A stretch of DNA of 42,068 nucleotides, from the NCBI GenBank assembly GCA_945875545.1, contig CAMCKZ010000021.1, positions 1 to 42,068 of the forward strand. Reading direction: 5' to 3'. The notes under the pieces are model-generated. The model was given only the letters and a program-made list of their open reading frames with translations, ran no database searches and was not told the DNA's origin. Shown piece after piece: positions 20,782-41,080 of the stretch. The DNA is from Polyangium aurulentum. GTDB lineage: Bacteria; Myxococcota_A; Polyangia; Polyangiales; Polyangiaceae. Both the position numbers and the translations under genes were made by a program. How positions within the stretch are numbered: the stretch's first letter is position 1; every line of letters begins with the position of its first letter.

Positions 20782-21909
20782 ATGCCCGAATCGATCGAGC
20801 GGCTATTTGCCGAGGGAACGCTACGCTACTCCCAAGTTTGGGAAGACCACCTCCTCGTCGAAGACGGCTTGAAGGCGGGCCCCGGCGACGACGTGCTCTC
20901 CATCGCCAGCGCGGGGTGCAACGTCCTCGGTCTGCTGCTTCGCGAGCCAAAACGCGTGGTCGCCATCGATCTCAACCCGAGCCAACTGAGCGTCGTTGAG
21001 TTGAAGCTGCGGGCCATCGAGCATTTGACCCACGAAGAATTCGTGAACCTGATCGGCATTCGCGAGGGCCTCGACCGCATCGCGCTTTACGAAAAAGTTC
21101 GGCCGCATTTGTCGGAGCGAGCACGCCAGTGGTGCGATGTGCGCGAGGGAGATTTCATCGCGGGTCTTCACTGGAGCGGCCGCCTCGAAGCGTTCTTTCG
21201 CGCTTGGCGCGAGGGCGGGCTTGGCCGCGTGCACAGCAAAGAAATCATCGACCAGATGCTGTCGTTTGAAAACCTCGAGGACCAGAAAGCCTTCTTCCTT
21301 GACCACTTCGGCACCGAGGGCGTTAAGCGCGAAATTGCTGCTTATTTCACGGTGGAACGCATTGGCGGCGAGGGGCGCGACGAGCGGCAGATGCGTTACG
21401 TCGCCGGCGCAGAAGACAAAAACGCGCGCCTCGCGAAGTACTTTTTCAATCGCTTCGCGACCATCTGCACCGCGACGCCGTCGTCACAAAATTGTTACCT
21501 CGAATCGATCTTGACTTCGCGTTACCGCAACCTCGAGAACATCCAGACCTACTTGCATCCGGCCAACTACGATCGACTGAAGTCGCTGGTGCCCCGCGTC
21601 GAACTCGTCAACGAAGAGGTCGGCGCTTACATCAAGAGTCAGCCCGTGAACGCGCTCAACAAGGCCAATCTTTCCGACCTTTTCGAGTACCTGAGCGAAG
21701 AGGTCTGCGAAGACATGTTTCGCACCATCGGTGAGCGATTTCGCGTCGGCGGGCGCATTATTTACTGGAACCTCTTCGTTCCCCGCTCGGCCCCGGAGCA
21801 CCTGCGCGCCCTTATCGCGCCGCAAGAGGCGGAAGCCCAAGCACTTTATGCGCGCGATCGCGCTCTCTTTTACAGCGCGTTCCACGTCGATGAGGTCCAG
21901 CCCCGATGA
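20782..21909 (+). CDS. BtaA-like S-adenosylmethionine:diacylglycerol 3-amino-3-carboxypropyl transferase (DUF3419)
   Basis: BtaA transfers the aminocarboxypropyl group of SAM to diacylglycerol in betaine-lipid synthesis; the wider DUF3419 family shares this chemistry. The SAM-binding region reads DDVLSIASAGCNVLGLLL (about residues 35-52) with VVAIDLNPSQLSVVELK (59-75). The middle has RNLENIQTYLHPANYDRL and the C-terminus GERFRVGGRIIYWNLFVP, as in family members. The length (375) is in the normal range. The start has AGGA five bases upstream. Its TGA overlaps the ATG of the next gene (ATGA at 21906-21909), which means translational coupling. The N-methyltransferase BtaB, needed to finish a betaine lipid, is not in the window, so the product may differ. 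Confidence 0.85.
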   Translation: MPESIERLFAEGTLRYSQVWEDHLLVEDGLKAGPGDDVLSIASAGCNVLGLLLREPKRVVAIDLNPSQLSVVELKLRAIEHLTHEEFVNLIGIREGLDRIALYEKVRPHLSERARQWCDVREGDFIAGLHWSGRLEAFFRAWREGGLGRVHSKEIIDQMLSFENLEDQKAFFLDHFGTEGVKREIAAYFTVERIGGEGRDERQMRYVAGAEDKNARLAKYFFNRFATICTATPSSQNCYLESILTSRYRNLENIQTYLHPANYDRLKSLVPRVELVNEEVGAYIKSQPVNALNKANLSDLFEYLSEEVCEDMFRTIGERFRVGGRIIYWNLFVPRSAPEHLRALIAPQEAEAQALYARDRALFYSAFHVDEVQPR

Positions 21910-24653
21910 GTGCCCGAAATGTTCGCGGCGACGACCGCAAATCCCGTCGTTTTCGCTTCCCCGACGATCAACTCCCAAATGTCAAGCTTGAACGCGACGG
22001 CACCACTTGGGTCGCTTTTTTGGCGGATATTTCCGAAGATGGCGCGATGGTGCGCCTTGAGGGTGAGGTGCCCGCGGTAAGGGCCACCGTCGACCTGGTG
22101 CTGACGGACTTCGTCGCCCTCGGAATCGCGCCACTGCACGGCATGACTGTGCATTCGGTGACCCACGCCTCGAACGGCACGAGCTCCGTCGTCGTCACCA
22201 CCGAAGGCGAAGAAAATAGAGCCGTGCTGTGGCAATTGGTTGAACTGTTGTCGGTTGGGGCCGCCGCCGCCGCGGGGCAAATTGCTCGCGACGACGTCCC
22301 GCGTATTCCTGGTCGCGGCACTTACAACGACGCCGCCCGGCGCGATCGGCTCAACTTTTTGCGAAAAGTCAGCGGCGCTAATCTCAGCGCCCTCGACGAA
22401 ACGCGCCTCGATCCGGAGCGCCTAAGCAGCAACATTGAGAACATGGTCGGCGCCATCGAGGTGCCCGTTGGCATCGGCGGTCCCCTGCTTTTTCGCGGCC
22501 AAGAGGCCCGCGGCATGATCTACGCGCCGATGGCCACCACCGAGGGAGCGCTCGTCGCCTCGGTCACCCGCGGCGCCACGGCCATCACGCGCGCCGGCGG
22601 CTGCATCACGCGCGTGCTCGGTCAACGCATGATGCGCGTGCCCCTCTTCGTGCTCTCGAGCCTCAACGGCGCGGTGATTTTTGCCCAGTGGATTCGCGAA
22701 CACGTCGACAAGATTCGCGACCAGGTTCGCCAAGTCACGCGCCATGGCAAGCTCGTTTCCGTGGAGCCCATCATTCAGGGCAACATGGTCAACCTGAACT
22801 TCCTCTACGAAACCGGCGACGCCGCGGGTCAGAACATGACCACAGCGTGCACGTGGCACGCCGTTCAGTGGATCGTCCGGCAAATGAAGTTCTTCCGGGA
22901 AATCGAGATCCGCGATTTCGTTTTGGAAGGCAACATGAGCGGCGACAAAAAAGTCACCTATGGGTCGTTTCTCAACGGGCGAGGCACGCGGGTTGTGGCC
23001 GAGGCATTCATCCCCGGCGACATCTTCAAGGACGTCCTAAAACTCGACCCCACAGCCTTCGTCAAAGGCATTGCACGGGCCCAGGCGGGCGGAATCGCCG
23101 TGGGCATGGTCGGCTTCACGATCAACGCGGCAAACGTCATTGGCGCGATGTTCACGGCGCTCGGTCAAGACATCGCCTGCGTGCATGAATCCTCCGTCGC
23201 GCAGCTTCACGCCGAAAACGTCGACGACGGCGTTTACGCCTCCATCGTTCTCCCGGCCCTCATCGTTGGCTCCGTGGGCGGCGGCACTCACTTGCCTGCG
23301 CAGCGCGCGCTTCTCGACAGCATCGGCTGCGTAGGCGCAGGAAAATCACAGCGTTTGGCGGAAATCATCGCGGGCTTTTGCCTGGCCCTTGACCTCAGCA
23401 CCGGGGCCGCGATGGCCTCGGGTCAGTTCGCGCACGCCCACGATCGCCTGGGCCGAAACCGCCCTGTCGAGTGGTTCTCCAAGAAAGATTTGACCCCCGC
23501 GTTCTTCGAGGCGGCCCTGCAAAAAAGCCTCGGTGACGCGGGCCTCAAAGTATCGGTCGTCGAGCCCGTCACGATGACCATGGGCTCCAGCATCATCGCC
23601 GATATTTCCAGTCGCAACATGGAGAAGCAGGTCGGGTTCTTTCCGATGCGTGCATATTACACGTCATCATCGGGCGAAGACTCCCATGTCGATGTCGTCT
23701 TGAAATCGAAGCCCCTCGACCAAGAAATCATCATGCTGGCCAACCGCATGGCGGCCATGTGCGGGCCGCGCGTGGCCACCGCCCACGACAAGGCGAAAGC
23801 GCGCACGGGTTTCTTGGCCTCGCACACGCGCGAGCTTGCCATTTACCGCCAAACAGACCCGCGCTTTGTGGCCCACACGCCCCGCGTTTTTCTGCTCTTC
23901 GAAGACGCAAAGCGCGAAGCCTACGTTCTCGGCATCGAGAAACTCTCGGGCCTGCTGCTCATGGATTCGGTCGAAGAGCCCGAAAAATGGACGCGCGCCG
24001 ACGTGCGCACGGTCCTCGACGGTGCCGCCGAACTCCACGCGATTTGGCTCGGTCGCGAGGCTGAACTCGCCGGGCAACCATGGATAGGCGAGATTCCGAG
24101 CACGAAGCAGCGCACCGAACTGCGTGAACTCTGGGACTCCCTAATCGTCCAAGCGTCCAGCGAATTCCCTGAACTTCTTAACCTCGAAGAAGCCGACCTC
24201 GTGCGCTCTTTTATCAAGACGACGCAGGCTTGGTGGCCCGAACTCGAGGCTATGCCTCGAACCCTCTGCCACAACGACTTCAACCCTCGAAACTTGGCGA
24301 TTCGCGCCGACGACAGCGGCACGAGACTCTGCGCCTACGACTGGGAACTCGCGACGCTCCACGTGCCCCAGCACGACGTGGGGGAATTTCTCGCCTTCGT
24401 TTTGCCCGCGGGCTTCGAGGCCGACCTGCTGTGGGAATACGTGGAATATGCACGCATTGCCCTGGAGAAAAGCAGCGAAAAGCCCATCGATGCCGCCCAA
24501 TGGAAGCGGGGGTTTCAGCTTTCCTTGCGCGACCTCGCGCTTGATCGCTTCGCCCAATACACGATGGCGCACGTCTTCAAACAGTACTCCTTTTTGGAGT
24601 ACGCGATGCGGAACCTCATTCGCATGATCGCGTTCGCGGAAGCGGCACCCTGA
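21906..24653 (+). CDS. PilZ - class I HMG-CoA reductase - APH/choline-kinase-like phosphotransferase fusion
   Basis: The 915-residue protein has three recognisable parts. (1) Residues 1 to about 115 are a PilZ domain with both c-di-GMP motifs, RKSRR (11-15) and DISEDG (41-46). (2) Residues about 140-585 are HMG-CoA reductase of class I type: IENMVGAIEVPVG with Glu178, ATTEGALVASV, GQNMTTACTWHA, EGNMSGDKK with Lys348, GQD with Asp422, GSVGGGTHLPAQ, and His512 aligning with the catalytic His, so the catalytic tetrad appears intact. (3) Residues about 590-915 form a kinase-like domain: VVLKSK (Lys600/602), TRELAIY (Glu643), CHNDFNPRN (Asp791, Asn796) and YDWE (Asp812). HMGR normally makes mevalonate from HMG-CoA with NADPH; the kinase substrate is unknown. 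The gene is coupled to the BtaA-like gene by a 4-base overlap. Confidence 0.88.
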   Translation: MSARNVRGDDRKSRRFRFPDDQLPNVKLERDGTTWVAFLADISEDGAMVRLEGEVPAVRATVDLVLTDFVALGIAPLHGMTVHSVTHASNGTSSVVVTTEGEENRAVLWQLVELLSVGAAAAAGQIARDDVPRIPGRGTYNDAARRDRLNFLRKVSGANLSALDETRLDPERLSSNIENMVGAIEVPVGIGGPLLFRGQEARGMIYAPMATTEGALVASVTRGATAITRAGGCITRVLGQRMMRVPLFVLSSLNGAVIFAQWIREHVDKIRDQVRQVTRHGKLVSVEPIIQGNMVNLNFLYETGDAAGQNMTTACTWHAVQWIVRQMKFFREIEIRDFVLEGNMSGDKKVTYGSFLNGRGTRVVAEAFIPGDIFKDVLKLDPTAFVKGIARAQAGGIAVGMVGFTINAANVIGAMFTALGQDIACVHESSVAQLHAENVDDGVYASIVLPALIVGSVGGGTHLPAQRALLDSIGCVGAGKSQRLAEIIAGFCLALDLSTGAAMASGQFAHAHDRLGRNRPVEWFSKKDLTPAFFEAALQKSLGDAGLKVSVVEPVTMTMGSSIIADISSRNMEKQVGFFPMRAYYTSSSGEDSHVDVVLKSKPLDQEIIMLANRMAAMCGPRVATAHDKAKARTGFLASHTRELAIYRQTDPRFVAHTPRVFLLFEDAKREAYVLGIEKLSGLLLMDSVEEPEKWTRADVRTVLDGAAELHAIWLGREAELAGQPWIGEIPSTKQRTELRELWDSLIVQASSEFPELLNLEEADLVRSFIKTTQAWWPELEAMPRTLCHNDFNPRNLAIRADDSGTRLCAYDWELATLHVPQHDVGEFLAFVLPAGFEADLLWEYVEYARIALEKSSEKPIDAAQWKRGFQLSLRDLALDRFAQYTMAHVFKQYSFLEYAMRNLIRMIAFAEAAP

Positions 24654-24703
24654 ACGAAAAACGGGTAATGCCCGGGCACGCTTTTTTTACTGTTCGGAGT
24701 CCC

Positions 24704-28308: not shown

Positions 28309-29519
28309 TGCGGACTGTGACCGCATCTGCACGGCTTCGTTCGCCCTTGCCGCCCACGGTTATTGCCCTCGGAATAACAAGCTTTTTCACAGACTTAGGC
28401 GCGGAAATGATCTTTCCGCTGCTGCCCATGTTCGTCGCCACCCTGGGCGCCAATCCCGCGTTCATCGGTCTCGTCGAAGGCCTCGCAGACGCAGGCGCGA
28501 GCATCTTGAAGCTCGCCATGGGCTGGGCCGCAGACAAGTTTGCCCATAAGAAGCCGTGGGTTCTTTTCGGATATGGACTCGCCGCGTTTGTGCGTCCATT
28601 GGTATTTTTTGCAACCGCGCCTTGGCAGGTGCTGGCGATACGCCTGACGGACCGCGTTGGAAAGGGCCTCCGCTCTACCCCACGAGATGTACTCTTGGCG
28701 AACGCGGTTTCACCGGAACAGTCAGGGCGCGCTTTCGGGTTTCATCGGGCGATGGACCATGCGGGCGCGGTCGTCGGGCCCATCGTGGCGAGCGCGTTGC
28801 TTGCGTGCGGCGTGCCGCTGCGCTTCGTTTTCGCGTCGGCGCTTGTGCCCGGCCTTTGCGCGGTCGTCGCCGTTTTGACCGTAAAAGAACGCGCGACGGC
28901 GAGGGCGGCCGAGGAGCGTCGCGCTACGACGACGGCCGGTCGCGAGGACGAACCGGTTCCCGGGTCGCTCAAGCAATATCTTGCAATCATTTGCCTTTTT
29001 GCCCTGGGAAATTCCACAGATGCGTTCTTGCTCTTGCGCGCCCATAGCATAGGCATTTCAATACTATCGCTGCCGTTTGTTTGGTCCGCCTTTCACGTGG
29101 TCAAGGTCGTGGTCGCGTATTTCGGCGGCTCGTGGTCCGATCGCCTGCCCCGGCATCGCCTCGTGGTGGCGGGCTGGGTGACGTACGCTTTGGTGTACCT
29201 CGGTTTCGCTTTCGCCAAGCAGACGTGGCATATTTGGGGGCTATTTTTGGTCTATGGTGCGCACCATGGCCTTTGCGAGCCCGCAGAGAAGGCCATGGTC
29301 CGCGATCTCGCGCCGGGCTCAGCGCTGGGGCGAGCGTTTGGGCTTTACAATTTCTCTGTGGGCATCATGGCCCTGCCCGCCGGCCTGCTCACCGGGTGGC
29401 TTTGGCAGGCATGGGGCCCCGTCGTGGCGCTCGGCGCGGGGGCTGCTACGGCGGGCGCGGCGACCGTTGCGCTGCTCGCATGGGGCGGCGCGCAGCGTCG
29501 GGTTATTTCTTCGGCGTGA
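28305..29519 (+). CDS. MFS transporter
   Basis: The 404-residue inner-membrane protein has about twelve hydrophobic segments in two halves separated by a charged loop (KERATARAAEERRATTTAGREDE). The loop after helix 2 reads GWAADKFAHKKPWVLFG, the MFS motif-A region, and RLTDRVGKGLRSTPRDVLL resembles a subgroup of MFS exporters. The substrate cannot be inferred. The GTG at 28305 (directly followed by an ATG) overlaps the stop of the CAP gene, indicating coupling. The 3' end overlaps the convergent RND exporter gene by 17 bases. Confidence 0.85.
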   Translation: MMRTVTASARLRSPLPPTVIALGITSFFTDLGAEMIFPLLPMFVATLGANPAFIGLVEGLADAGASILKLAMGWAADKFAHKKPWVLFGYGLAAFVRPLVFFATAPWQVLAIRLTDRVGKGLRSTPRDVLLANAVSPEQSGRAFGFHRAMDHAGAVVGPIVASALLACGVPLRFVFASALVPGLCAVVAVLTVKERATARAAEERRATTTAGREDEPVPGSLKQYLAIICLFALGNSTDAFLLLRAHSIGISILSLPFVWSAFHVVKVVVAYFGGSWSDRLPRHRLVVAGWVTYALVYLGFAFAKQTWHIWGLFLVYGAHHGLCEPAEKAMVRDLAPGSALGRAFGLYNFSVGIMALPAGLLTGWLWQAWGPVVALGAGAATAGAATVALLAWGGAQRRVISSA

Positions 29520-31872
29520 CCATGGGCTTCCACGCGAGAAGGAGCACCGGGGTCATGAAGAGATCCGCAAAAACGGCCGACGCGAGGGAGATGGCGAGCA
29601 GGGTTCCGAGGTGATGGAGGCCCACGAACTCACTCGCATTTAGCGTGAGAAAACCCAGGGAAACCGCGGTTGCGGTGATGAACATGGGCATGCCCGTGGA
29701 CGTCAATATTTCCTTCACAGCGATGGCGTGCGCGTCTTTTTCCCCTTGGCCCAAGAGCTCGGCGAGGCGCTCGCGAAAGCGCGCCAAAAACTGAATCGTG
29801 TCGTCGTCGGCGACGACCAACGTGATCGAAAAAACGATGACCGTGGAAGGCTTCACGTCGATGCCAAGGGCGGCCATCGCGCCCAGCGTCAAGAGCAGCG
29901 GCGACAGGTTCGGCACGAGCGCAATCAGCGCCAACCGCCACGACCGCAGCACAAAGAGAAACACGATAAACGAGGAAATAACCGCGCCGGCGAGGGACTT
30001 GGTAAGACCGCCGACGAGACTGTCGTAGATGCCATCGGCAACTCCGTAAATGCCCGTCACGCGCGCGCGCACGCCCGCGGCCTTCGCGTGTTCGTCGAGC
30101 CACGGCTTAAAGTCGTCGAGGAATTTTTTCGCCTGCGACGAGCCGTTGTCGGGAACGAGCGCCACCACCGCGGCCGAATCGTGATCCGTCGAAAGCACAT
30201 CGCGCAAGGCCTCACGGTCTTCGACCGCGTTCAGCTCCTTCACCGCGAGGCTTCGCTTGTCGGGGATTGGAGAGTTCTTCGCGACGTCTTCGCCTGCAAA
30301 TAGCCTGTGCGCCTTCTTCACGGCCCGCACATGCGAACCGGCGTTTTTGACGAGATCGCCGTGCTTGGTTTCGAGCTCGCGGACAACGTCGTCGAGAAAT
30401 TGAAGAACCTTGGGCTCGAGCATCGCTCCGTTCGGCGCGTACCCGGACTCGGGCAAACCCTCGACGTGGATGGCCATCGGAACACTCCCACCGGCACGCG
30501 CTTCGAGACGACGAATATTTTCCCACAGAGGTGAATGGGGCTTGAGGTCGTCGTAGGAAAAATACTCTTTACCAACGCCGCGTGATGCCACGGTGGCCAG
30601 GGCCAAAATGGCCAAAAATACAGCCGTTACGCGCTTTGGCGCATGCGTCACGACACCGTGAACCCACGCGATAAAGCCCGCCACAAGCCGCGCAATCCCT
30701 TTTTCTTGAGACGCGCCGTCGGCGGAATTCGCAGCAGCGGCCGGAGCCTCGGGCTTCATCAGCGTCATGGCGAGGGGCAGCACCGTGACGTTCGCGAGCC
30801 ACGTGAGGAGCATGCCGCCGGCCGTGACGAGACCAAACTGCTGAATCATCGTCATGTCCGCGAGGGCCAAACTGACGAACCCCGCGGCGATCGTAATTTC
30901 GGTCAGTAGGCACGGCCAAGCGCTCTCTTTGATGGCGTGGGAAACGGCCTCGGGCCAGGGTTTTCCCTTGGCAAAGCTCGCGCGCGCGTCGTTCACAATG
31001 TGCACGGTGTCGGACACCGAAATGATCATGCAAATGGTCGGCACGAGCTGCGTCATGATCTGCAGCGGCACGCCGATGGCCGCCATGAAGCCGAGCGACC
31101 AATGCACCGCCACGAGAATGGTCGCGAGGGCAGCCATCACCGCGCCCACACTTCGGAAGGTCGCGTAGAGCAGCGAGAGAATGACTGCGAGCGCCAACGG
31201 AAAGAGAATGGCGAGATCTTTGTTCACCAAAAACGTGAACGAGGGCCGAATGATGGGCAGCCCTGAGAGGGTGAGGCGCTCGTCGACGCCTTGGCCTTTG
31301 GCCAACGTTTCATGTGCAATAACAATGGCTTGCGCTTTTTTCAAAAAAGCTTGACGTGACTCTTCTTTCGAGGCCACGTCTTTTTGCAGCGTGACCGAAA
31401 CGTTCATCGAGCCGCCGTCCGGGTGCGCCAGGCCGTAGCGAAAAAGAGGGTCGGTGGTGGCGGTGTGCTTCGCCGCCTGAAGGTCCGCCGCCGACATCTC
31501 AAGGGGAAAAAGTTTCGTCAGCGCGATGCCCGCCTCGTCGCCGGTCACGTCTTGGGTGGAGCCCGGGCCCTGCACCGAGGCCACTTCGGGCATCGCTTTG
31601 AACGCAGCTTCGAGCGCGCGAATGCGTCCGAGGCCGCCCTTCGTGAAGACGTCCGGTGCCTCAAAAACCACGATCGCCTGCGCATCGTCGAAGGCAAAGG
31701 TCTCGCGGTAGTGGTCGTAGTCCGTGCGGCTTTGGTGCTGCTTCGGAAAGAAGAGCTCGATCGAGAGGTCGACCCTCAGACGCATGAGAGCCGTGCCTGA
31801 CAACAGCAAGAGGGCGACGACGAAGGCCAGACCACGACCGCGCTTTTCAATGAGAGAGAGAAGAAAGGCCAT
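29503..31872 (-). CDS. RND/MMPL-superfamily exporter
   Basis: The 789-residue protein has the duplicated RND layout: TM1 (about 14-34), a large periplasmic loop (35 to about 225), a block of five helices (about 228-400), then TM7, a second periplasmic loop and a second helix block ending in LLLAWKPMVTPKK. Motifs such as IISVSDTVHIVNDARASF and the second-half VVADDDTIQFLARFRERL carry the conserved acidic residues of proton relay in this family. It belongs to the group of predicted hydrophobe exporters (COG1033, HpnN-like), which move lipids. It follows the outer-membrane protein and LolA-like genes on the same strand, 146 bases downstream, suggesting one trans-envelope system. Confidence 0.87.
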   Translation of the reverse strand: MAFLLSLIEKRGRGLAFVVALLLLSGTALMRLRVDLSIELFFPKQHQSRTDYDHYRETFAFDDAQAIVVFEAPDVFTKGGLGRIRALEAAFKAMPEVASVQGPGSTQDVTGDEAGIALTKLFPLEMSAADLQAAKHTATTDPLFRYGLAHPDGGSMNVSVTLQKDVASKEESRQAFLKKAQAIVIAHETLAKGQGVDERLTLSGLPIIRPSFTFLVNKDLAILFPLALAVILSLLYATFRSVGAVMAALATILVAVHWSLGFMAAIGVPLQIMTQLVPTICMIISVSDTVHIVNDARASFAKGKPWPEAVSHAIKESAWPCLLTEITIAAGFVSLALADMTMIQQFGLVTAGGMLLTWLANVTVLPLAMTLMKPEAPAAAANSADGASQEKGIARLVAGFIAWVHGVVTHAPKRVTAVFLAILALATVASRGVGKEYFSYDDLKPHSPLWENIRRLEARAGGSVPMAIHVEGLPESGYAPNGAMLEPKVLQFLDDVVRELETKHGDLVKNAGSHVRAVKKAHRLFAGEDVAKNSPIPDKRSLAVKELNAVEDREALRDVLSTDHDSAAVVALVPDNGSSQAKKFLDDFKPWLDEHAKAAGVRARVTGIYGVADGIYDSLVGGLTKSLAGAVISSFIVFLFVLRSWRLALIALVPNLSPLLLTLGAMAALGIDVKPSTVIVFSITLVVADDDTIQFLARFRERLAELLGQGEKDAHAIAVKEILTSTGMPMFITATAVSLGFLTLNASEFVGLHHLGTLLAISLASAVFADLFMTPVLLLAWKPMVTPKK

Positions 31873-32018: not shown

Positions 32019-33845
32019 TCAGAACTTGCCCCGCGCCATCACGAACATTTGCGTATTGCGCGCGTAATACGCCGCATAGGAGCCCTCATCGCCCTCGAGC
32101 CACACGAGCCCGGCCCGCACATCCCACGTGGCCTCTTTCCAGGAAATTTGCGGTCGAAGAAGATACCCGCGCGGGTCCAAAACCGCGGCTCCGCGAAGCT
32201 CCACCTCGAGCTTGTCGCCAAACGTGTGCCGGACAAGCGCGCCCTGCGACAGGGTCGTCTCGCGAATGAAGAGGGTCGAGGCTCCCGCCCCGAGGTCGAT
32301 CCATTGCTGCGCGCTGGTTTCGAGAAGCACGAACGTGCCGTGCTCTCCCGGTTGCCACTCGATACCCACGACGCCGGTGGCCACAGGCGACAATCCCGCG
32401 CTGAAATCGCTGCGCAAAAAAGGCGCTCGCGAGTCGTATGCTCCCTCTATTTTCAGCACCACAGGCCCAAGCGCCCTAGCCACATCAAAGCCCAGATGCA
32501 TACGCCTTACGTACGTCGACATGACAAGGGGTGTTCCCTTCTCCGTCGCATCCAAAAAGGGCTTGGCTAGGCCCCCTACGGTCGTGAGGTCCGCGGAGGC
32601 GAAAGCCGCGGGCAGGTCTGGAGAGACGCGAAAAAATGGCTGCGTATGGAACCCGTAATGGGCGTAGAGCGCGCCGTCAAAACCGCGGGCCTCCCAGGCG
32701 AGGCGGGCCCCGGCGGAGGCCTCGGAAAAGTCCAACCGCGGCTTCTGAGTTTGCCCAAGAATTCCCGTGAATTCAGAGCGAAGCGTGGGGTCTACAAGCT
32801 TTCCAACGCGGTTCATCAGGTAGCGAACAGCGGCAGGCGCCGAAGGCTGAAGGAGCGCGCCGTTGGACCCCCAAATATCGAACGTATCGGGTGTAAAAAA
32901 AGGGGCCACGTGAAGCTGCAGCGAGGCCTGAGCGCCAAGGGGAAAGTCGGCGCGAGCGGCCATGGCGGGAAGGCGCTGCAGGGCGACGTCGGTCGTGAAA
33001 AGATCGCGAACGTCGCGCGCGTTCACGACATCGTTCGGGGCAAAGGCGTCGCTCTTTCCCCAGGAAATTCGCTGAAGACCGATGCGAAGGTCCATCACGC
33101 GCCCGTAGACACCAAGCCAGCCTTCGCGCACCACGCCTTCGAAACTTGTGCGCGGCGGACCGCCCGACGGGCCGTCAAAAGCCCCCGCGGTTGGCGACGC
33201 GTTGGCGTACACGCCGTAGCTCGCCGATGCCGCCACCGCGGCCTCAAAAGTCTTGCCGCGGCGGTAGCGCGCGCGCAGGTACCCTTGCAGATCGCCCGTC
33301 ACGCGATCGTAGGGCAACACCATCGCGTCTGCATCCGGAGCCCGGCGGTCGCTCTCGCCCATCACGCTGCTGCGAAAGCGGGCCCAACCTGAAAATTCGT
33401 AGCGACCTTCTTCCGCGGCCTGAGGCTTTACGGGCGGGGCGGCAGGCGCCGGCGTGTCCGATTCAAATACCTCCACGTCGTCATCGCCGACCTTTTGCGG
33501 ATCCTGTTTCGCGTCCTGTTTCGCGTCCTGTTTCGCGTCAGTGGACGACGCCGCGGTGCCCTCGCCAAGACCTTTGCCTTGAGGCAACGGCCCGGGCCTC
33601 TCGTTGGCCTTCGGAGGGAACGTTTTCCTGGGAACGGGCTCGTCATCGAGCTCGATGACCTCGGAGGGAAAGGCCCTCGTCGGTGCCCGCTTTGGTGCCC
33701 GCTTTGGCATCTTTTCGCGCATGCGACCCGGCGGGGGCCGCACGGGATACGGCGCCGCGGCTGCGGCATGGAAGGAAGTCCACACGGATACGGCCGCCAC
33801 GCCCGCCACAAAGGCGCCTGCGTGCCGCCGAAAACTCGCGTGCAT
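32019..33845 (-). CDS. Outer-membrane beta-barrel protein, DUF1302-like
   Basis: The 608-residue protein has a signal peptide (AGAFVAGVAAVSVWTSFHAAAAA), then a long low-complexity region rich in Lys, Arg, Pro, Asp and Gln (about residues 35-140, with KRAP and DAKQ repeats), then a beta-barrel ending in Phe (RNTQMFVMARGKF). The segment LRIGLQRISWGKSDAFAPNDVVNARD is characteristic of DUF1302-type outer-membrane proteins. In other bacteria these are found beside COG1033-type RND exporters and a periplasmic lipid-binding protein, as here. The start at 33845 lies seven bases after the stop of the LolA-like gene; the longer frame to 33896 would overlap that gene. Likely role: outer-membrane channel for a hydrophobic cargo. 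Confidence 0.75.
   Translation of the reverse strand: MHASFRRHAGAFVAGVAAVSVWTSFHAAAAAPYPVRPPPGRMREKMPKRAPKRAPTRAFPSEVIELDDEPVPRKTFPPKANERPGPLPQGKGLGEGTAASSTDAKQDAKQDAKQDPQKVGDDDVEVFESDTPAPAAPPVKPQAAEEGRYEFSGWARFRSSVMGESDRRAPDADAMVLPYDRVTGDLQGYLRARYRRGKTFEAAVAASASYGVYANASPTAGAFDGPSGGPPRTSFEGVVREGWLGVYGRVMDLRIGLQRISWGKSDAFAPNDVVNARDVRDLFTTDVALQRLPAMAARADFPLGAQASLQLHVAPFFTPDTFDIWGSNGALLQPSAPAAVRYLMNRVGKLVDPTLRSEFTGILGQTQKPRLDFSEASAGARLAWEARGFDGALYAHYGFHTQPFFRVSPDLPAAFASADLTTVGGLAKPFLDATEKGTPLVMSTYVRRMHLGFDVARALGPVVLKIEGAYDSRAPFLRSDFSAGLSPVATGVVGIEWQPGEHGTFVLLETSAQQWIDLGAGASTLFIRETTLSQGALVRHTFGDKLEVELRGAAVLDPRGYLLRPQISWKEATWDVRAGLVWLEGDEGSYAAYYARNTQMFVMARGKF
33503..33538 (-). repeat. Three 12-base tandem repeats within the DUF1302-like gene
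   Basis: CCTGTTTCGCGT is repeated three times on the plus strand and encodes DAKQ repeats in the linker after the signal peptide. A second short repeat nearby (about 33686-33712) encodes the KRAP repeats. Both make the linker length prone to change. Confidence 0.85.
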
Positions 33846-33852
33846 ATTGCAG

Positions 33853-34665
33853 CTATTCTTTCTCAAGAGCGCGCGCGGTAAACTCCTCGTCGGCAATCGT
33901 TCCCTCGGGTTTGACCTCGTCGAGAATGAGTTCTGTCGTGCGATTTTCCACGTGGTTTGTCACGAGGCTCTTCGTGATGAAGAGCTTGCCCTCGATCTTT
34001 TTCGCCTCTTTCGCCTCGATGGTTTTGACCGCTTGCCCGTTCGCCCCAAACGCGACGGTCTTCAGAGGAACGAAGTCTGTCGTGCGCGCCCACACTTCGA
34101 GGTGCCCGTACGGCGACTCACCCTTGGGCAACACATCGAGGTGGTAGCAATCGGCCTTTCCGACTTTCTCGATGCCCACAAGCTTGGCGGTGCCATCGCG
34201 GAGGTCGCGGCGGTCCATGTCGGCGTAAGAAAAGTCGGTCCCGGAGAACGACGCTTTTCGCGATGCCCCGGCAATTCGCTTGGTTTTCTTGAGTTCCGGA
34301 ATCCACAAAAAGCGGTCATCGTCGCCGTCGGATTTCTCGATCTGCAAGAAGGCCTGGCCCGCCAAATCGGCCGGTGCCGTGAAGCGCATAAGGCTTTTTG
34401 TGAGCCGCGGACCCGCCTTTCGCGACTTCGATTGAAAGGCCATCTCGCGCGGCGCGCCGCCTTGGGCCTTCACAATGAGACGGGCTTTCACATACGCGCC
34501 GCCAGACCCCCACGCGTCGTTCTCCAAAAGTTTTTCGACGATGGAGCTCGCCGAGGGATCCGCCGCCCGCGCGGGCGTGTGAACCAAAACCAGCGAATTT
34601 GCCGCCAATAGAGCGACAACAGAGCGCCGCCATGAGCCTTGCCGTCGAACGATACGATGGGCCAT
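33853..34665 (-). CDS. LolA-like periplasmic outer-membrane lipoprotein-sorting protein
   Basis: The 270-residue product has a signal peptide (RRSVVALLAANSLVLVHTPARA) and a single LolA/LppX-type beta-sheet domain. The stretch FLWIPELKKTKRIAGASRKASFSGTDFSYADM is typical of the 'outer membrane lipoprotein-sorting protein' family that accompanies RND exporters. Such proteins shield acyl chains while crossing the periplasm. The frame is open to 34779, but the upstream part is His/Arg-rich; the ATG at 34665 has GAAGGT seven bases upstream. It is the first gene of an apparent operon with the DUF1302-like barrel and the RND exporter. Confidence 0.85.
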   Translation of the reverse strand: MAHRIVRRQGSWRRSVVALLAANSLVLVHTPARAADPSASSIVEKLLENDAWGSGGAYVKARLIVKAQGGAPREMAFQSKSRKAGPRLTKSLMRFTAPADLAGQAFLQIEKSDGDDDRFLWIPELKKTKRIAGASRKASFSGTDFSYADMDRRDLRDGTAKLVGIEKVGKADCYHLDVLPKGESPYGHLEVWARTTDFVPLKTVAFGANGQAVKTIEAKEAKKIEGKLFITKSLVTNHVENRTTELILDEVKPEGTIADEEFTARALEKE

Positions 34666-34820
34666 ACGATACCTTCGTGGGTGATGCCGGCGGGGGTGTG
34701 CGCGGCGGATCTTGAGGTGTTGCCTTACAAAAGCCTCGGAGCGGCCCGCGTGACGCGGCGTGAACTGTGCACCGTGCACCGTGCAGATTAACGCAAGCCC
34801 GCTCCAAGCCGAGGGCTTTA

Positions 34821-34964: not shown

Positions 34965-36398
34965 ATGACCATGAACTGCCTCACCATGGCGGCGGACCAA
35001 TTGGAGTCCCGCGGCGCGCAGATGGCCCTGTGGACGGAAGACGACGGGCCGGTCTCCTTCGCCGAAATGTTCGTTCTCACGCGCCGCGCCCAGGCCCTGC
35101 TCCAGCGCCAAGGCATTGGCCCCGGCGATCACGTGCTCCTTTTCGCCCTGCCCGGCCCGCGCCTCTACGCCATGATCATGGGCCTCCTCGGGCTTGGGGC
35201 CGCAGTGATGCTTGTAGAGCCCTGGATGCCCATAGAGCGCGTCGATCACGTGGTGCGCAGTACGAGACCCAAGGCCTTCTACGCGGGCTGGCTAGGCCGC
35301 CTGTGGGGCCTGCGCGTGAAGGCGATTCGCGAGATTCCGCTGCACCTCGGCCTCAAAGATTTTGACGCAGAAAAACCCCTTGACAAATTGCATATTCATG
35401 CATGCACCGGAGACGAGCGCGGCATCGTCACGTTTTCATCGGGCACGTCGGCGGCACCCAAGGGCGTTGTGCGAACCCATCGTTACATGACGGACATCAC
35501 GGAGATTCTGAACAAGTACGACCCGCCGGAGCAGCAACACGGGCCGGACCTCTGCCTCTTCGCGAACCTCGCCACGTTGCACATTGCCAATGGGCGCTCG
35601 GCGTATTTGATTCCGCATCACTGGAAGGGGCGGAGCCTTAAAAAGCTTGAGGCCGCCGCCGTGGCCGGAGGCCAAGAGCCCGTGTCGCTTATCTGCGGTC
35701 CAGCTTTTCTGAAGCATTTGCTGACGGTTGGCGGTTTTCCGAAGCTCGAACACATTCACGTCGGCGGCGCCCTCACGCCAACGTCGCTGTTTGAAGAGGC
35801 CTTCGCGCGGTGGCCCCACGCCCGCTTCACGCACATTTATGGGGGCAGCGAGGTTGAGCCCGTGGCGTTCGCCGATGGGCGCGTCGCCGTCGCAGAGAGC
35901 AAGGCCGCCGGTCTTTTTCACACGCTGTTTGTGGGCAACCCCATCGAAGAGCTGGCGATCGACATGCACGACGAAAAAGGCCCGTGGGTTGCTGGGCCAA
36001 ACGTATGCCCCGAGTACGTGGGCGCGAACGACGAAAACAAGAAGTACAAGCGCCGCGACGCCGACGGCCGCCTTTGGCATTTCATGGGCGATCGCCTCAA
36101 AAAGACCGACGCCGGTTACTGGTACGCGGGCCGCTCGTTTCAAGAGCCGGGCATCTTCGAGCTCGAAGAAAAGCTGTTTGCGCTCCTCCAGCGCGACAAG
36201 TTTTTTCTCCATCGCGATGAAAAAGGAGTGCTCTGCGTGATCGGCGAGGGCGTCAAAAAAGACCTCGCGAAAATGCAAGTACTGGCGCCCGAAGTGCTTC
36301 GCGCATTTGAGGTCACCCTCGTCGTAGACCGTCGTCATCGTGCACGAATCGATCGTGCCCACGCCCTCGGAAAGGCTGCAAAATGGCTCGCTGGCTAA
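34965..36398 (+). CDS. AMP-dependent acyl ligase (acyl-CoA synthetase-like)
   Basis: The enzyme belongs to the ANL superfamily, which activates carboxylic acids as acyl-adenylates. At 477 residues it is shorter than the usual 520-560. Motifs: phosphate loop TFSSGTSAAPKG (156-167), A5-like YGGSEVEP (292-299), and the ribose-binding Asp in FMGDRLKK (373-380). The C-terminal VVDRRHRARIDRAHAL resembles the OleC-type ending, but the position of the usual catalytic Lys appears to be Arg461. The substrate may be a fatty acid. The ATG has AGGA seven bases upstream; a second ATG lies six bases later. Its end overlaps the UbiA-family gene by 16 bases, and it leads a four-gene run. Confidence 0.85.
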   Translation: MTMNCLTMAADQLESRGAQMALWTEDDGPVSFAEMFVLTRRAQALLQRQGIGPGDHVLLFALPGPRLYAMIMGLLGLGAAVMLVEPWMPIERVDHVVRSTRPKAFYAGWLGRLWGLRVKAIREIPLHLGLKDFDAEKPLDKLHIHACTGDERGIVTFSSGTSAAPKGVVRTHRYMTDITEILNKYDPPEQQHGPDLCLFANLATLHIANGRSAYLIPHHWKGRSLKKLEAAAVAGGQEPVSLICGPAFLKHLLTVGGFPKLEHIHVGGALTPTSLFEEAFARWPHARFTHIYGGSEVEPVAFADGRVAVAESKAAGLFHTLFVGNPIEELAIDMHDEKGPWVAGPNVCPEYVGANDENKKYKRRDADGRLWHFMGDRLKKTDAGYWYAGRSFQEPGIFELEEKLFALLQRDKFFLHRDEKGVLCVIGEGVKKDLAKMQVLAPEVLRAFEVTLVVDRRHRARIDRAHALGKAAKWLAG

Positions 36399-37252
36399 TC
36401 TTCTTGAAAGAGCGCACGCCCATCGCGCTGCTGCTCCCGGTCGTCTTCGGCGTGTACTATTCGGCGCAGGCCGGCACGCAAAAACCCGGCTCGCTTTTCG
36501 CGTTCCTCGGCGCGCTCATTGGCCTCACGGGTTTTCTCGTGCTGGCCCGGCTGATGGACGAAAAGAAAGATTACCACAAAGACCTCGTGGCTCACCCGGA
36601 GCGCCCGCTGCCCCGCGGCTTGCTCACGGTGGCCGAGGTCGATGTGGCCATTTTGCGAAGTACGTGGGCCCTTTTTGGCGTCGCCGCAGCCTTCGCAGCC
36701 CTTGGGAATATCCCCGCCGGCGTTGGTTTCGCCGTCACCGTTGGCTACCTCTGGCTCATGTACCGCGAGTTCTATGTGGGCGAGTGGCTGGGGGAATACC
36801 CTATCCCGTATGCGGTAAGTCATCAGCTAGTCGTATGGCCGCTGTATGCGTACGTGTTTGCGCTCTTCGACCCTTCGAGCCTCGTCTCGAAACTCACCCT
36901 TGCCTACGGCCTTTGCACCATGGGTGCCTCCATGAGTTTGGAGATCACGCGCAAGCTCGACCCCCAAGCTCACCCCGCGCTAAAGACCTATTTGGTCATG
37001 TACGGCCCGGCGAAAACCTTCGCGCTTACCCTGGTTTTTGTGCTACTTGCGGGCTGTGGCGCGCATCTCCTAGGCCTCGAAAAACTCTTGTGGCCGGCCG
37101 AAGCTCTTCTCGTCCTTGGCGCCTCCACGGTCTTTTGGAAGCCCAGTGCGTTCAAGGCCGTTGAGGGACTTTCGGCCCTCTCGGTTCTCATTCATCTCTT
37201 CGGCCTCGCCATTGCCCAATGGGCAGGCTTCCCGCTCCCGGTGCATCCATGA
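36383..37252 (+). CDS. UbiA-family prenyltransferase
   Basis: The 289-residue integral-membrane protein has about eight or nine helices. UbiA enzymes transfer a prenyl group from a diphosphate, bound through Mg2+, to an acceptor. The first Asp-rich motif is DEKKDYHKD (residues 59-67), followed by AHPERPLPRG as in the subgroup with a DExKD signature. The second half has SLEITRKLDPQ in place of the usual second Asp motif. The acceptor is unknown; quinone, lipid or glycerol phosphate acceptors all occur in the superfamily. Its start lies inside the acyl-ligase gene and its stop overlaps the next ATG (ATGA, 37249-37252), so all three are likely translated together. Confidence 0.85.
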   Translation: MARWLIFLKERTPIALLLPVVFGVYYSAQAGTQKPGSLFAFLGALIGLTGFLVLARLMDEKKDYHKDLVAHPERPLPRGLLTVAEVDVAILRSTWALFGVAAAFAALGNIPAGVGFAVTVGYLWLMYREFYVGEWLGEYPIPYAVSHQLVVWPLYAYVFALFDPSSLVSKLTLAYGLCTMGASMSLEITRKLDPQAHPALKTYLVMYGPAKTFALTLVFVLLAGCGAHLLGLEKLLWPAEALLVLGASTVFWKPSAFKAVEGLSALSVLIHLFGLAIAQWAGFPLPVHP

Positions 37253-39993
37253 CCCCAGACTCCTTCTCGGTGCTTCTTGCCTCCGCCTCTGACGAATTGT
37301 TTGTGGCCCAAGGTGGCGGCAAAGCCAGGAATTTGGCTAAGCTCGTGAAGCTTGGGCATCGGGTTCCCGAGTTCTTTTGCGTGCCGGTTCCCTTCTTTGA
37401 TTCCTTCGTAGAACTCAATGGCCTGCAGGTGACCGTGCCGCCCGAGGGCGAGCTCGCAACCCTCGCCGAAGACGTCGACCGGCGCTTTGTCGCGGGCACG
37501 TTTCCGCAAGCCTTGCGCGACGCGATCGCGGCGGCTCTCGAGGCCCACGGCCTTCACAAAGGGTTTGTCGCGGTGCGCTCTTCGGGCCTCGACGAAGACT
37601 CCATCGAGCACAGTTTTGCCGGGCAATTTAGCTCGTATATGTACCGCCAAGGCGTCGACGACGTCATCGATGCCCTGAAGCGATGTTGGGCCAGCGGCTA
37701 TTCGGAACGGGCTCTTTCCTACCGCCGCGAGCGCGGGCTTACCGTGAGCAACATTCGCGTCGGCGTCGTGGTGCAACGCATGGTCGATGCGGAGGTTGCG
37801 GGCGTGGCATTCTCGCGCAACGCCATTGCTTTTTTGGACCGCGATCGCGCCATGGTTTCGAGCGTGTGGGGTCTCGGCGAGGGTCTCGTATCGGGAGAGC
37901 TCGATGCAGACTCTTTCCTGGTAAATCGCGATGGATCCAAGGTCGAAGCCACCATCGTCGACAAAGAACATGCCCTCCGCCAAGCGCCCGAGGGAGGCCT
38001 TCAAAAAGTCGCCGTGGTCGAGGAGCAGCGAAAGGTTTCATCGCTCACCGACGCCCAGGCCATCGAAGTTGCGCTGCTCGTCGTGAAGCTCGAAAAGGCC
38101 ATGGGCATCGCGCAAGATTGCGAGTGGGCCATCGTTGGCGGGCTTCTCTATTTGCTCCAAACGCGGCCCATCACAAACCTCCCGCCCGACGGCATTTTTG
38201 ACCCTGAGATTTCAGGACGCGAGCCAATTCTCTGGGATAACTCCAACATCATCGAGTCGTTCTGTGGCGTGACAACCCCCCTCACCTTCAGCCACGCATC
38301 GCGCGCCTATGCGGCCGTGTACGAGGTTTTCGCGCGGGTCATGGGTGTGCCCGAGGCGATGATCCAAGAGCACATTCCGATGTTCCGCAACATGCTCGGC
38401 TTCGTGCGGGGGCGCATCTATTACAACCTCGTTTCTTGGTACCGCTTGATCTTTCTGTTTCCGGGGTCGTCCACGAATTCGCAATTCATGGAAACCATGA
38501 TGGGCACGAAAGAGGGGCTAAAACCTGAGCTTGCGGCACTTTTCGAGTTCACCAAAAACCCGCCCAAGTACTCGGCGATCGAGCTCGTCTCGCTGGTGCT
38601 CAAGTCGGTGGGCCGCTTCGCAACGATCAATTCGATCATCGACGACTTCATGAAGAACGTCGCCCGCCGCTACGACCAGACCATGGCGATGAACATGGAC
38701 AAGATGTCCCTCGTCGCGGTGTACGACCACTACGAGCTCATAAACAAGGAGCTGCTCTTCAACTGGAAGGCTCCCATCATCAACGACACGCGGGTGATGG
38801 TCTTCTTCGGTCTCCTGAAAAAACTCACAGAAAATTGGGTTATGGAGAAGGCTGGAGACGAGGCCGCGTCGCTGCAAAATGATCTTTTGTGTGGCCAAGG
38901 CGACCTCGAGTCCACGGAGCCAACCAAGGCCTTGATGCGCATCGCCAAGCGCATCGACCAGGGCGACGCGCAGTACCGAAGCTGGTACCTCGGCGCGTCC
39001 AACGAGGAGCGCCGCGCGGCCATCTACGAGAGCGACACGAGCCACGCGGCATCGGTGGCCTTTCGCGCGTTCGTCAACAAGTACGGCTTCCGCTGCGTCG
39101 ACGAACAGAAGCTCGAAGAGCAGGATTTGCACGACGATCCGTCGTTTGCCCTCGAGGCCATCGGCAGTTACGTGGCGCGCAAAACCTACTCCATCGAAGA
39201 GATGGAAAAGCGCGAAGGGGTGATTCGCGATCGGGCCGAGGCCTTGATCCGCGACAAAGTCTCCGGCGTGCGATCCCTCATTTACAACTGGGTCCTCAAG
39301 AACGCGCGCAACGCCGTTCGCGATCGCGAGAACCTTCGGTTTCAACGCACGCGCACCTTCGGCCTCTGTCGCCGCCTCTTTCGCGCCACGGGTAAAAAGC
39401 TCTTCGAACTCGGTGCCATCGATGCGCCGCGAGACGTCTTTTTCCTCACAATTGACGAACTTTCGGGCTTCATCGACGGCCGCGCCACAAGCCTCAACTT
39501 GCGCGGGCTCGCCGCGCTTCGCAAGGCCGAGTACGTCAAGTACCAGGACGACCTTCCGATCCCCGATCGCTTCATCACCTACGGTGCCGCCGGCGCCTCC
39601 ATGCAGCACATCGGGGTTCTCCAAGACGCCGACCTCTTGAAGAACCTCCGGCACAGCGACGATCCGGACGTGCTCTACGGAACCCCGTGCTGCCCGGGCC
39701 AAGTCGAAGGCGTTGTGCGCGTTGTCAAGCAAATGCAAGACGCCTCCGGATTGAACGGAGAAATCCTGGTCAGCGAGCGCACCGATCCGGGCTGGGTGCC
39801 TCTCTATCCCTCGTGTTCTGGACTCCTCATTGAACGCGGTTCGCTCCTCTCGCACTCGGCGGTTGTGGCGCGTGAACTCGGCCTGCCCACGGTGGTTGGC
39901 ATCAGCGGCGGCCTCATGTTGAAACTCAAAACAGGCATGCGCGTGCGCATCGACGCCGGGCGCGGCGAAGTAAGGATTCTGCGCGATGAGTAA
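37249..39993 (+). CDS. PEP-synthase/rifampin-phosphotransferase-like enzyme
   Basis: The 914-residue protein has three parts. The N-terminal PPDK-type ATP-grasp domain (to about 320) shows GGGKARNLAKL, VAVRSSGLDEDSIEHSFAGQ, GVAFSRN and LLQTRPIT. The central part (about 330-810) is helical and matches no family I recognise. The C-terminal swivelling domain has GSLLSHSAVVARELGLPTVVG with phospho-acceptor His869. There is no PEP-binding TIM-barrel, so it is unlikely to be a true PEP synthase. This ATP-grasp/unknown/His layout is that of rifampin phosphotransferase, in which the middle domain binds the small-molecule substrate and phosphate passes via the His. The ATG at 37249 (overlapping the UbiA stop) is preferred to 37219. 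It overlaps the next gene by eight bases. Confidence 0.85.
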   Translation: MTPDSFSVLLASASDELFVAQGGGKARNLAKLVKLGHRVPEFFCVPVPFFDSFVELNGLQVTVPPEGELATLAEDVDRRFVAGTFPQALRDAIAAALEAHGLHKGFVAVRSSGLDEDSIEHSFAGQFSSYMYRQGVDDVIDALKRCWASGYSERALSYRRERGLTVSNIRVGVVVQRMVDAEVAGVAFSRNAIAFLDRDRAMVSSVWGLGEGLVSGELDADSFLVNRDGSKVEATIVDKEHALRQAPEGGLQKVAVVEEQRKVSSLTDAQAIEVALLVVKLEKAMGIAQDCEWAIVGGLLYLLQTRPITNLPPDGIFDPEISGREPILWDNSNIIESFCGVTTPLTFSHASRAYAAVYEVFARVMGVPEAMIQEHIPMFRNMLGFVRGRIYYNLVSWYRLIFLFPGSSTNSQFMETMMGTKEGLKPELAALFEFTKNPPKYSAIELVSLVLKSVGRFATINSIIDDFMKNVARRYDQTMAMNMDKMSLVAVYDHYELINKELLFNWKAPIINDTRVMVFFGLLKKLTENWVMEKAGDEAASLQNDLLCGQGDLESTEPTKALMRIAKRIDQGDAQYRSWYLGASNEERRAAIYESDTSHAASVAFRAFVNKYGFRCVDEQKLEEQDLHDDPSFALEAIGSYVARKTYSIEEMEKREGVIRDRAEALIRDKVSGVRSLIYNWVLKNARNAVRDRENLRFQRTRTFGLCRRLFRATGKKLFELGAIDAPRDVFFLTIDELSGFIDGRATSLNLRGLAALRKAEYVKYQDDLPIPDRFITYGAAGASMQHIGVLQDADLLKNLRHSDDPDVLYGTPCCPGQVEGVVRVVKQMQDASGLNGEILVSERTDPGWVPLYPSCSGLLIERGSLLSHSAVVARELGLPTVVGISGGLMLKLKTGMRVRIDAGRGEVRILRDE

Positions 39994-41080
39994 CCGAACC
40001 ATCGAGACCCTTTCTGCCGCTTTGGGCACTCGGACCGAAAGCGTTTTTCTCAACGAATTCGCTGCGTTTCCCCTCGCTTGCCGCGGGGAAGAATATCGCA
40101 TTGCGCTCTCGTCTGTAGGCGCAACGCTGTTCATGATGAACGCCGGTCTCACAGAGGTGCGCGAGGCCTGGCTCGTCAAGAGCGAGGGCCGCGTCGTGGG
40201 TCGTGTTCACGCGAACACGAGCTGGACGCGAGAAGGTGTAGGATACATCGGGTTTTACGAAGTCGACCTGCGCGAAACCGATCATGCCGACGTCGCGCGC
40301 GAGCTTCTTGGCGCCGCCACGACGTGGCTCGCGGGGCACGGCGCGCTCAAAGTCTATGGTCCGATCGACTGGTGCACCTGGTTTTCGTACCGTTTTCAGA
40401 CGGCCCAACCCGAGGGCTACAAGTCCGGGCGCTTTTTTTGGTGGGAGCCCGTGAACCCGCCGGAGTTCCTCACCCACTGGGAGGCCGCGGGTTTTGTCGC
40501 CGAGGAGCATTACCACACGAAGGCCGCGGAGCACAGCGCGACGGCCCCCATGTCGCTGACCTCAGACCTCATGAAGCCCGCCTACGATGCCGCTGTCGCC
40601 GAGGGTTACCGCTTTCGGCCGATGAAAGACGGCGACGATTTCATGAGCGAGGCCGAGGGACTCTACGAGGTAAACGCCAGCGGATTTGCTGGTAATTTTC
40701 TCTTTGAGCCCATCCCGTTCGCGCTCTACAAACAGACGATTTCGGGCATCGTGGGCAAGGTCGATTTTAGCCTTTCGTTTTGGGTCCACTCCAAAGACGA
40801 CCGCCCCGTCGGGTACATTTATTGTTTCGCCGACGGCGAGTACGCCGTTGGCAAGAGCGTCGTCATCATGCCAGGCCATCGTGGAAAGGCCATTTCGCCG
40901 GCGCTTATGCACCTCACGAGCCATCGGGCCGTCGAGCTCGGGATTCCAACGGCCGTGAGTGCGTTGATACGCCGCGGCAACGTGAGCGACCGCATTACCA
41001 GGACTGCCGAGGAGCACGCCGTGGCGCCGTGGCGCCATGAGTACGTGCTCTACGGCAAGAGCGTTACGCCGATTTCGTGA
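39986..41080 (+). CDS. GNAT-like protein, probable two-domain acetyltransferase fold
   Basis: The 364-residue protein appears to hold two GNAT-like halves. The first (about 20-170) contains EAWLVKSEGRVVGRVHANTSW and VGYIGFYEVD, then ARELLGAATTWLAGHGALKVYGPID, the layout of uncharacterised GNAT proteins that start with a similar 'YGP' segment. The second (about 205-360) contains DDRPVGYIYCFADGEYAVGKSVVIMPGHRGKAISPALM, with a pyrophosphate-binding-like RGKAIS. An acyltransferase role on a pathway intermediate is inference. The gene overlaps the kinase-like gene by eight bases and the convergent P450 by 17 bases. Confidence 0.65.
   Translation: MSNRTIETLSAALGTRTESVFLNEFAAFPLACRGEEYRIALSSVGATLFMMNAGLTEVREAWLVKSEGRVVGRVHANTSWTREGVGYIGFYEVDLRETDHADVARELLGAATTWLAGHGALKVYGPIDWCTWFSYRFQTAQPEGYKSGRFFWWEPVNPPEFLTHWEAAGFVAEEHYHTKAAEHSATAPMSLTSDLMKPAYDAAVAEGYRFRPMKDGDDFMSEAEGLYEVNASGFAGNFLFEPIPFALYKQTISGIVGKVDFSLSFWVHSKDDRPVGYIYCFADGEYAVGKSVVIMPGHRGKAISPALMHLTSHRAVELGIPTAVSALIRRGNVSDRITRTAEEHAVAPWRHEYVLYGKSVTPIS

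Follow-up and report, generated by a model that had tools for sequence, protein, structure and literature searches.

A PilZ–HMG-CoA reductase-like–kinase fusion of Myxococcota with an altered HMG pocket: a candidate reductase-kinase of a lipid-type pathway

The 3-hydroxy-3-methylglutaryl-coenzyme A reductase (HMG-CoA reductase, or HMGR) is a textbook single-substrate enzyme. In a stretch of 42,068 nucleotides from Polyangium aurulentum (contig CAMCKZ010000021.1 of assembly GCA_945875545.1; hereafter the window), a relative of this enzyme is part of a larger protein, P0001, whose domains from N to C terminus are a PilZ fold, an HMGR-family domain of class I, and a domain of the APH/choline-kinase fold. 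An earlier note, made from the DNA letters alone, had placed all three in one protein, and the open reading frame (ORF), Pfam profiles, and structural matches of the PilZ domain bear this out. We propose, with moderate confidence, that P0001 is a bifunctional reductase-kinase that reduces an acyl-CoA thioester other than HMG-CoA to an alcohol and then phosphorylates that alcohol in a lipid-type pathway. If this is true, the HMGR scaffold has been reused as a general acyl-CoA-to-alcohol reductase, in a conserved branch in which the catalytic machinery is kept and the HMG clamp is replaced.

21906..24653, + strand: PilZ–HMGR-like–APH-kinase fusion P0001, 915 amino acids in a single ORF, recurring in other Myxococcota
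21906..22316, + strand: PilZ-fold domain, residues 1-137
22338..23456, + strand: HMGR-family domain of class I type, residues 145-517; best solved relative 6hr7
23463..24650, + strand: APH/choline-kinase-fold domain, residues 520-915

The frame of P0001 is uninterrupted by stops across 21906-24653(+), as determined by ORF calling. An HMGR-family domain and the kinase stand on one chain without internal stops at 17 loci besides the window, including loci in G566 and G568, both complete genomes, and an eighteenth (L055) is interrupted by a contig end within its reductase side. The earlier note had raised an assembly frameshift at the domain boundary as a possible origin of the fusion; given this intact recurrence, we ruled such an origin out. 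Relatives were sought in three sets, a sample of 379 Myxococcota genomes, 318 genomes of the window's class, and 57 of the class of G043; beyond Myxococcota, the search consisted of one scan of genome contigs, which reaches close relatives only. As the earlier note had suggested checking, the architecture recurs across the phylum: HMGR-kinase fusions are present in eight families, comprising the window's genus together with three other genomes from the same family (two complete, at 12-13.6 Mb, and one with two copies) and families f14, f23, f26, f36, f38, f48, and f54. Fusions from outside the genus in the sample of 379 genomes are 34-53% identical. Most sampled genomes lack the fusion, and its distribution is patchy.

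The reductase domain was compared with class I HMGRs at the catalytic residues and at the HMG pocket, using human numbering and an alignment with plant HMGR1 and 6hr7 among its members.

22542..22544, + strand: Glu213, catalytic Glu (human E559)
22926..22928, + strand: Glu341 at human Ser684 (Arabidopsis S390); Glu or Asp in 17/17 fusions with sequence there
22947..22949, + strand: Lys348, catalytic Lys (human K691); invariant
23076..23078, + strand: Arg391 at the human Lys735 position; R, G, A, H, D, or S in 18/18 fusions and Lys in 0/18, with a one-residue alignment gap beside position 735 that makes the exact partner residue of Lys735 uncertain
23124..23126, + strand: Asn407 at human His752; Asn in 18/18 fusions
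23169..23171, + strand: Asp422, catalytic Asp (human D767); invariant
23439..23441, + strand: His512, catalytic His (human H866)

Membership in the HMGR family is clear (PF00368, HMG-CoA_red, over residues 145-517: 362 bits, E 5e-108). Like the class I enzymes (6hr7, plant HMGR1 structures 8ecg and 7uli, and human HMGCR), P0001 has the fold family, the catalytic Glu/Lys/Asp/His, and the GGGT and DAxGxN nucleotide-site motifs, but it differs from them in the replacement of K735, S684, and H752, in the fused PilZ and kinase domains, and in a score that misses the curated equivalog cutoff of TIGR00533 (305.7 versus 441.8 bits). All four catalytic residues are kept in every fusion with sequence at those positions. 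The earlier note had correctly named Lys348, Asp422, and His512, but its catalytic Glu178 sits upstream, in SSNIENMVG, and the true residue is Glu213 in ATTEG (Arabidopsis E265). Its description of the tetrad as intact is accurate yet incomplete, as three pocket residues are replaced. In human HMGR, Lys735 forms a salt bridge with the HMG carboxylate. Both S684 and K735 contact the HMG moiety in class I HMGR (PMC9500038). Other pocket residues (R590, S565, K692, and N755) are kept in the alignment. An acidic residue at position 684 should disfavor HMG, and, as read from the alignment, the active site of P0001 is intact for catalysis and not for HMG recognition. The alternative that the earlier note had offered in passing, a related acyl-CoA, fits the evidence better than HMG-CoA does. 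In a tree, the fusion HMGR domains cluster together, separately from the stand-alone class I-like HMGRs (support 93/99). A literature search of partial coverage, with few subscription papers, found no such fusions, no HMGR with a PilZ domain, and no non-HMG HMGRs.

Several other HMGR-like proteins of Myxococcota also depart from the canonical pocket. Lys735 is missing in the stand-alone class I-like proteins at L056 8017-9552, L057 7896-9839, and L063 7894-8727. At L058 873-8649 (G353:C115), a stand-alone noncanonical HMGR-like protein with Asp at the S684 position and no Lys735 is encoded near an AMP ligase, a flavin halogenase-like protein, and a type III polyketide synthase-like protein, possibly another case of an HMGR in specialized metabolism. 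A divergent HMGR-like group (L037 8130-9275, L044 7999-9231, and L043 2-967) carries DPEKR instead of the DKK loop, and its L037 member lies near genes for an arginase-like protein, a phosphatidylserine (PS) decarboxylase, and a fatty acid hydroxylase.

The C-terminal domain has the features of the APH family: a profile match (PF01636 over residues 639-845, 43.6 bits against a cutoff of 23.2, E 4e-11), the HxDxxxxN…D active site (HND791…N796 and D812-W-E), and the ATP-site Lys and Glu. Lys600, Glu643, Asp791, Asn796, and Asp812, all picked out by the earlier note, are each invariant among 19 relatives; Lys602, which it had paired with Lys600, exists and lies outside the invariant columns. An AlphaFold2 model of the domain (predicted local distance difference test [pLDDT] score 92) matched choline, ethanolamine, homoserine, 5-methylthioribose (MTR), corramycin, and 25-hydroxy-steroid kinases in the PDB, the last of these (9ft5) being a kinase of a hydrophobic alcohol. 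Naming a substrate from these matches was tried and dropped, since corramycin, choline, homoserine, and steroid span too broad a range. A sequence search of the PDB with the kinase domain alone returned chance matches only. The common fold and active site are shared with APH, choline kinase, and EcKL kinases (for example, corramycin phosphotransferase 8agy and the steroid kinase 9ft5), but no solved structure is close in sequence to the P0001-type kinase, which is fused to thioester reductases.

The same kinase domain also ends a second kind of protein, in which an AMP-binding domain, a carrier protein, and an NAD_binding_4 thioester reductase precede it (fatty acyl-AMP ligase–acyl carrier protein–thioester reductase–kinase, or FAAL–ACP–TR–kinase). 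In these proteins, found in other Myxococcota (L041, L059, L061, L062, L095, and L096), the reductase is a Rossmann-type domain after the carrier protein and is nonhomologous to HMGR, no PilZ domain was found, and the neighbors include methyltransferase and PlsC genes. Most nonetheless have the same neighbor as the HMGR fusions, a phosphoenolpyruvate (PEP)-synthase-like gene, a homologue of which is found no farther than about 7 kb from the TR-kinase gene in G369, G339, G291, G043, and G030. One genome, G043, carries both architectures, and a single well-supported branch (97/98) separates the two architectures in the kinase tree. The best explanation for two nonhomologous thioester reductases ahead of one kinase is that the thioester is reduced to an alcohol, which is then phosphorylated, so the kinase likely takes the alcohol product of its reductase. 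The earlier note's general idea of a reductase and a kinase of its alcohol on one chain therefore gains strong indirect support from the kinase shared with FAAL–ACP–TR and from the common PEP-synthase-like gene, whereas its mevalonate version is disfavored. That either HMGR or FAAL–ACP–TR can precede this one kinase also offers a directly testable handle on an uncharacterized lipid-type pathway in Myxococcota.

ElbD of Myxococcus xanthus is a multidomain protein for fatty acid activation and reduction in ether-lipid synthesis (PMC9131029). It resembles only the TR-kinase counterpart; it has an acyltransferase, and its description mentions neither an APH kinase nor an HMGR. Pfam found none of the acyl ligase, ACP, reductase, and acyltransferase domains of an ElbD-type chain in P0001. 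In the assembly of G030, the FAAL–ACP–TR–kinase gene (L060 3499-7769) has an apparent frameshift between reductase and kinase. Sorangium-like methyltransferase genes were considered as UbiA fusions and rejected, because the additional residues at their N termini look like starts that a simple gene caller set too far upstream.

The N-terminal domain bears both motifs that the earlier note had reported for binding of cyclic di-GMP (c-di-GMP).

21936..21950, + strand: PilZ RxxxR motif RKSRR, residues 11-15
22026..22043, + strand: PilZ [D/N]xSxxG motif DISEDG, residues 41-46

An AlphaFold2 model of residues 1-137, built together with nine relatives, shows a beta-barrel and a C-terminal helix, for the most part confidently predicted (pLDDT 80.7), and its top solved matches in Foldseek are c-di-GMP PilZ proteins (YcgR 5y6g, PP4397 3kyf, MrkH 5kgo, and VCA0042 2rde; E 2e-4 to 1e-3). 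It is unlikely, though a possibility with some weight, that the domain is purely structural, binding no c-di-GMP and leaving the enzyme constitutive, which would concern control only and be compatible with any reading of the chemistry. Consistent with such a role, the Pfam PilZ match (residues 12-67, E 0.018) scores 15.8 bits, below the curated cutoff of 22.5, and among about 14 readable N termini (with uncertain protein starts in L089 and L091) only 4 have both motifs intact, namely, the window, L003, L052, and L092; L047 keeps the motifs in part, the other relatives have degenerate ones, and L050 apparently lacks the domain. Yet the four intact cases are not all close together in trees, the fold resembles c-di-GMP-bound PilZ structures, and the genome carries ten GGDEF matches, with at least nine clear genes. 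The scatter of intact motifs over separate branches suggests an ancestral c-di-GMP site that was repeatedly lost. Judged by the motifs, c-di-GMP control is not family-wide, and it is plausible in the window's genus, where binding of c-di-GMP by the PilZ domain would probably gate enzyme activity and bring direct c-di-GMP control to a lipid-building step.

Genes suited to lipid-type chemistry and export are found around the fusion.

20782..21909, + strand: DUF3419 (BtaA-like) gene (PF11899, E 9e-60), its stop overlapping the fusion ATG (ATGA)
29503..31872, - strand: MMPL/RND exporter
32019..33896, - strand: DUF1302 protein, likely the outer-membrane partner of the exporter
33853..34779, - strand: LolA-like outer-membrane lipoprotein-sorting protein (PF17131)
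34965..36398, + strand: AMP-dependent acyl ligase, fatty acyl ligase/OleC-like (PF00501; best NCBIfam match PRK09274, below cutoff)
36383..37252, + strand: UbiA-family membrane transferase (PF01040, E 3e-7, below cutoff; weak match to chlorophyll synthase BchG)
37219..39993, + strand: PEP-synthase/rifamycin-phosphotransferase-like protein (PF01326 and PF00391)
39986..41080, + strand: GNAT-family protein

Homologues of most of these genes accompany the fusion elsewhere: DUF3419 adjoins it or lies near it in L003, L045, L050, and L092, AMP ligases lie beside it in L045, L050, L052, L055, and L092, MMPL genes are near it in L042, L050, L052, and L092, LolA-like genes are present in L042, L046, and L050, and GNAT homologues occur near the PEP-synthase-like gene in L089, L091, and L093. 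The compact full set is seen in L092 (PEP-synthase-like, UbiA, AMP ligase, DUF3419, MMPL, and fusion), and the window holds every member of it, with the run of ligase, UbiA, PEP-synthase-like, and GNAT genes beside the MMPL, DUF1302, and LolA-like genes. In G553, G129, G257, G447, G566, and G568, no more than about 7 kb separates the fusion from the best PEP-synthase-like homologue. In the last two, complete genomes of 12-13 Mb, the closest such homologue is about 3 kb away; by our own arithmetic, the chance of a given gene falling within 5 kb is about 1 in 1,200 (a 10-kb span over 12.2 Mb). In both genomes the fusion also lies near a GNAT gene and a PS decarboxylase gene, the latter a second copy, as each has another elsewhere; a PssA-like CDP-alcohol transferase was shown for G568.

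For this set of genes we infer a substrate class, an order of steps, a product, and, in the window's genus, c-di-GMP control. The AMP ligase of the cluster would activate a carboxylic acid to a thioester, which the HMGR-family domain would convert reductively into a primary alcohol at the cost of two NAD(P)H, and the fused kinase would phosphorylate that alcohol with ATP. The phosphorylated alcohol may then enter a membrane-lipid or lipid-like product built by the UbiA-family and PEP-synthase-like enzymes, with an amine-bearing head group added by DUF3419 here or by the PS decarboxylase/CDP-alcohol transferase in G566 and G568, and the product may be exported by the MMPL/LolA system. A more detailed route, which we rate as improbable in all its parts together, is gated by c-di-GMP and runs from acid to acyl-CoA (ligase), alcohol (repurposed HMGR), monophosphate (fused kinase), and diphosphate (PEP-synthase-like dikinase), ending in UbiA transfer to a lipid acceptor. 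It parallels plant phytol salvage, which uses a two-kinase logic, but starts from an acid.

Several observations weigh against the proposed reductase-kinase pathway. The missing HMG clamp does not reveal which substrate has taken over, and, given the wide range of compounds phosphorylated by APH-fold kinases, the fold is no proof that the kinase uses the reductase product. In the window, the ligase, UbiA, and PEP-synthase-like genes lie 10-13 kb downstream of the fusion with unrelated genes between, and the UbiA-family protein keeps the first Asp motif while its second is degenerate in the alignment. The f38 loci L053 and L054, and also L090, lack the usual neighbors.

The reductase might instead act on an acyl-CoA while the kinase has some other substrate, for example a precursor of an amino-alcohol head group, like choline and ethanolamine kinases, so that the fusion would couple two branches of one lipid pathway. 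The closest folds (choline, ethanolamine, homoserine, MTR, and corramycin kinases) and the nearby DUF3419 or PS-decarboxylase/CDP-alcohol transferase genes, which suggest head-group chemistry, are in keeping with this arrangement, but the same kinase follows two unrelated reductases whose head-group neighbors differ, for which use of the reductase product is the simplest explanation, and we consider separate substrates rather unlikely.

Least probable, and very doubtful in our estimation, is the model of the earlier note, in which HMG-CoA reductase and mevalonate kinase on one chain make 5-phosphomevalonate under c-di-GMP control: family membership, the kept tetrad, the pocket residues R590, S565, K692, and N755, and an intact kinase active site agree with it, but in all fusions Lys735 is gone and Ser684 is acidic, the kinase belongs by family and fold to APH and not to the GHMP kinases that include the characterized mevalonate kinases, it is combined interchangeably with a FAAL–ACP–TR module, and a separate mevalonate operon exists. 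That operon answers a check proposed in the same note and speaks against its mevalonate reading. A single run at G000:C20 of the window's own genome encodes a polyprenyl synthase, a GHMP mevalonate kinase, a diphosphomevalonate decarboxylase, a phosphomevalonate-kinase-like GHMP protein, and a class II-type HMGR. Stand-alone HMGRs are present in 15 of the 18 fusion-bearing genomes searched, the other three being only 79-87% complete. Because of this operon and these enzymes, the fusion looks unnecessary for isoprenoid precursors, and a role in bulk isoprenoids is disfavored by the operon together with the altered pocket.

Some further genes adjoin the fusions. In the f38 loci, an NTP_transf_5 nucleotidyltransferase gene follows the fusion with overlapping ends (L053 7046-8428 and L054 11042-12409), and the second copy in G568 (L090 2996-12416) adjoins a nonribosomal peptide synthetase condensation-domain protein and an AMP ligase. 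Directly 3' of the fusion in the window is a cysteine-rich lipoprotein-like ORF (24668-26053), and its positional counterpart in L042 (1738-2823) has a match to the STIG1-like family. At the far end of the window, a cytochrome P450 gene (41064-42068) is truncated by the contig end.

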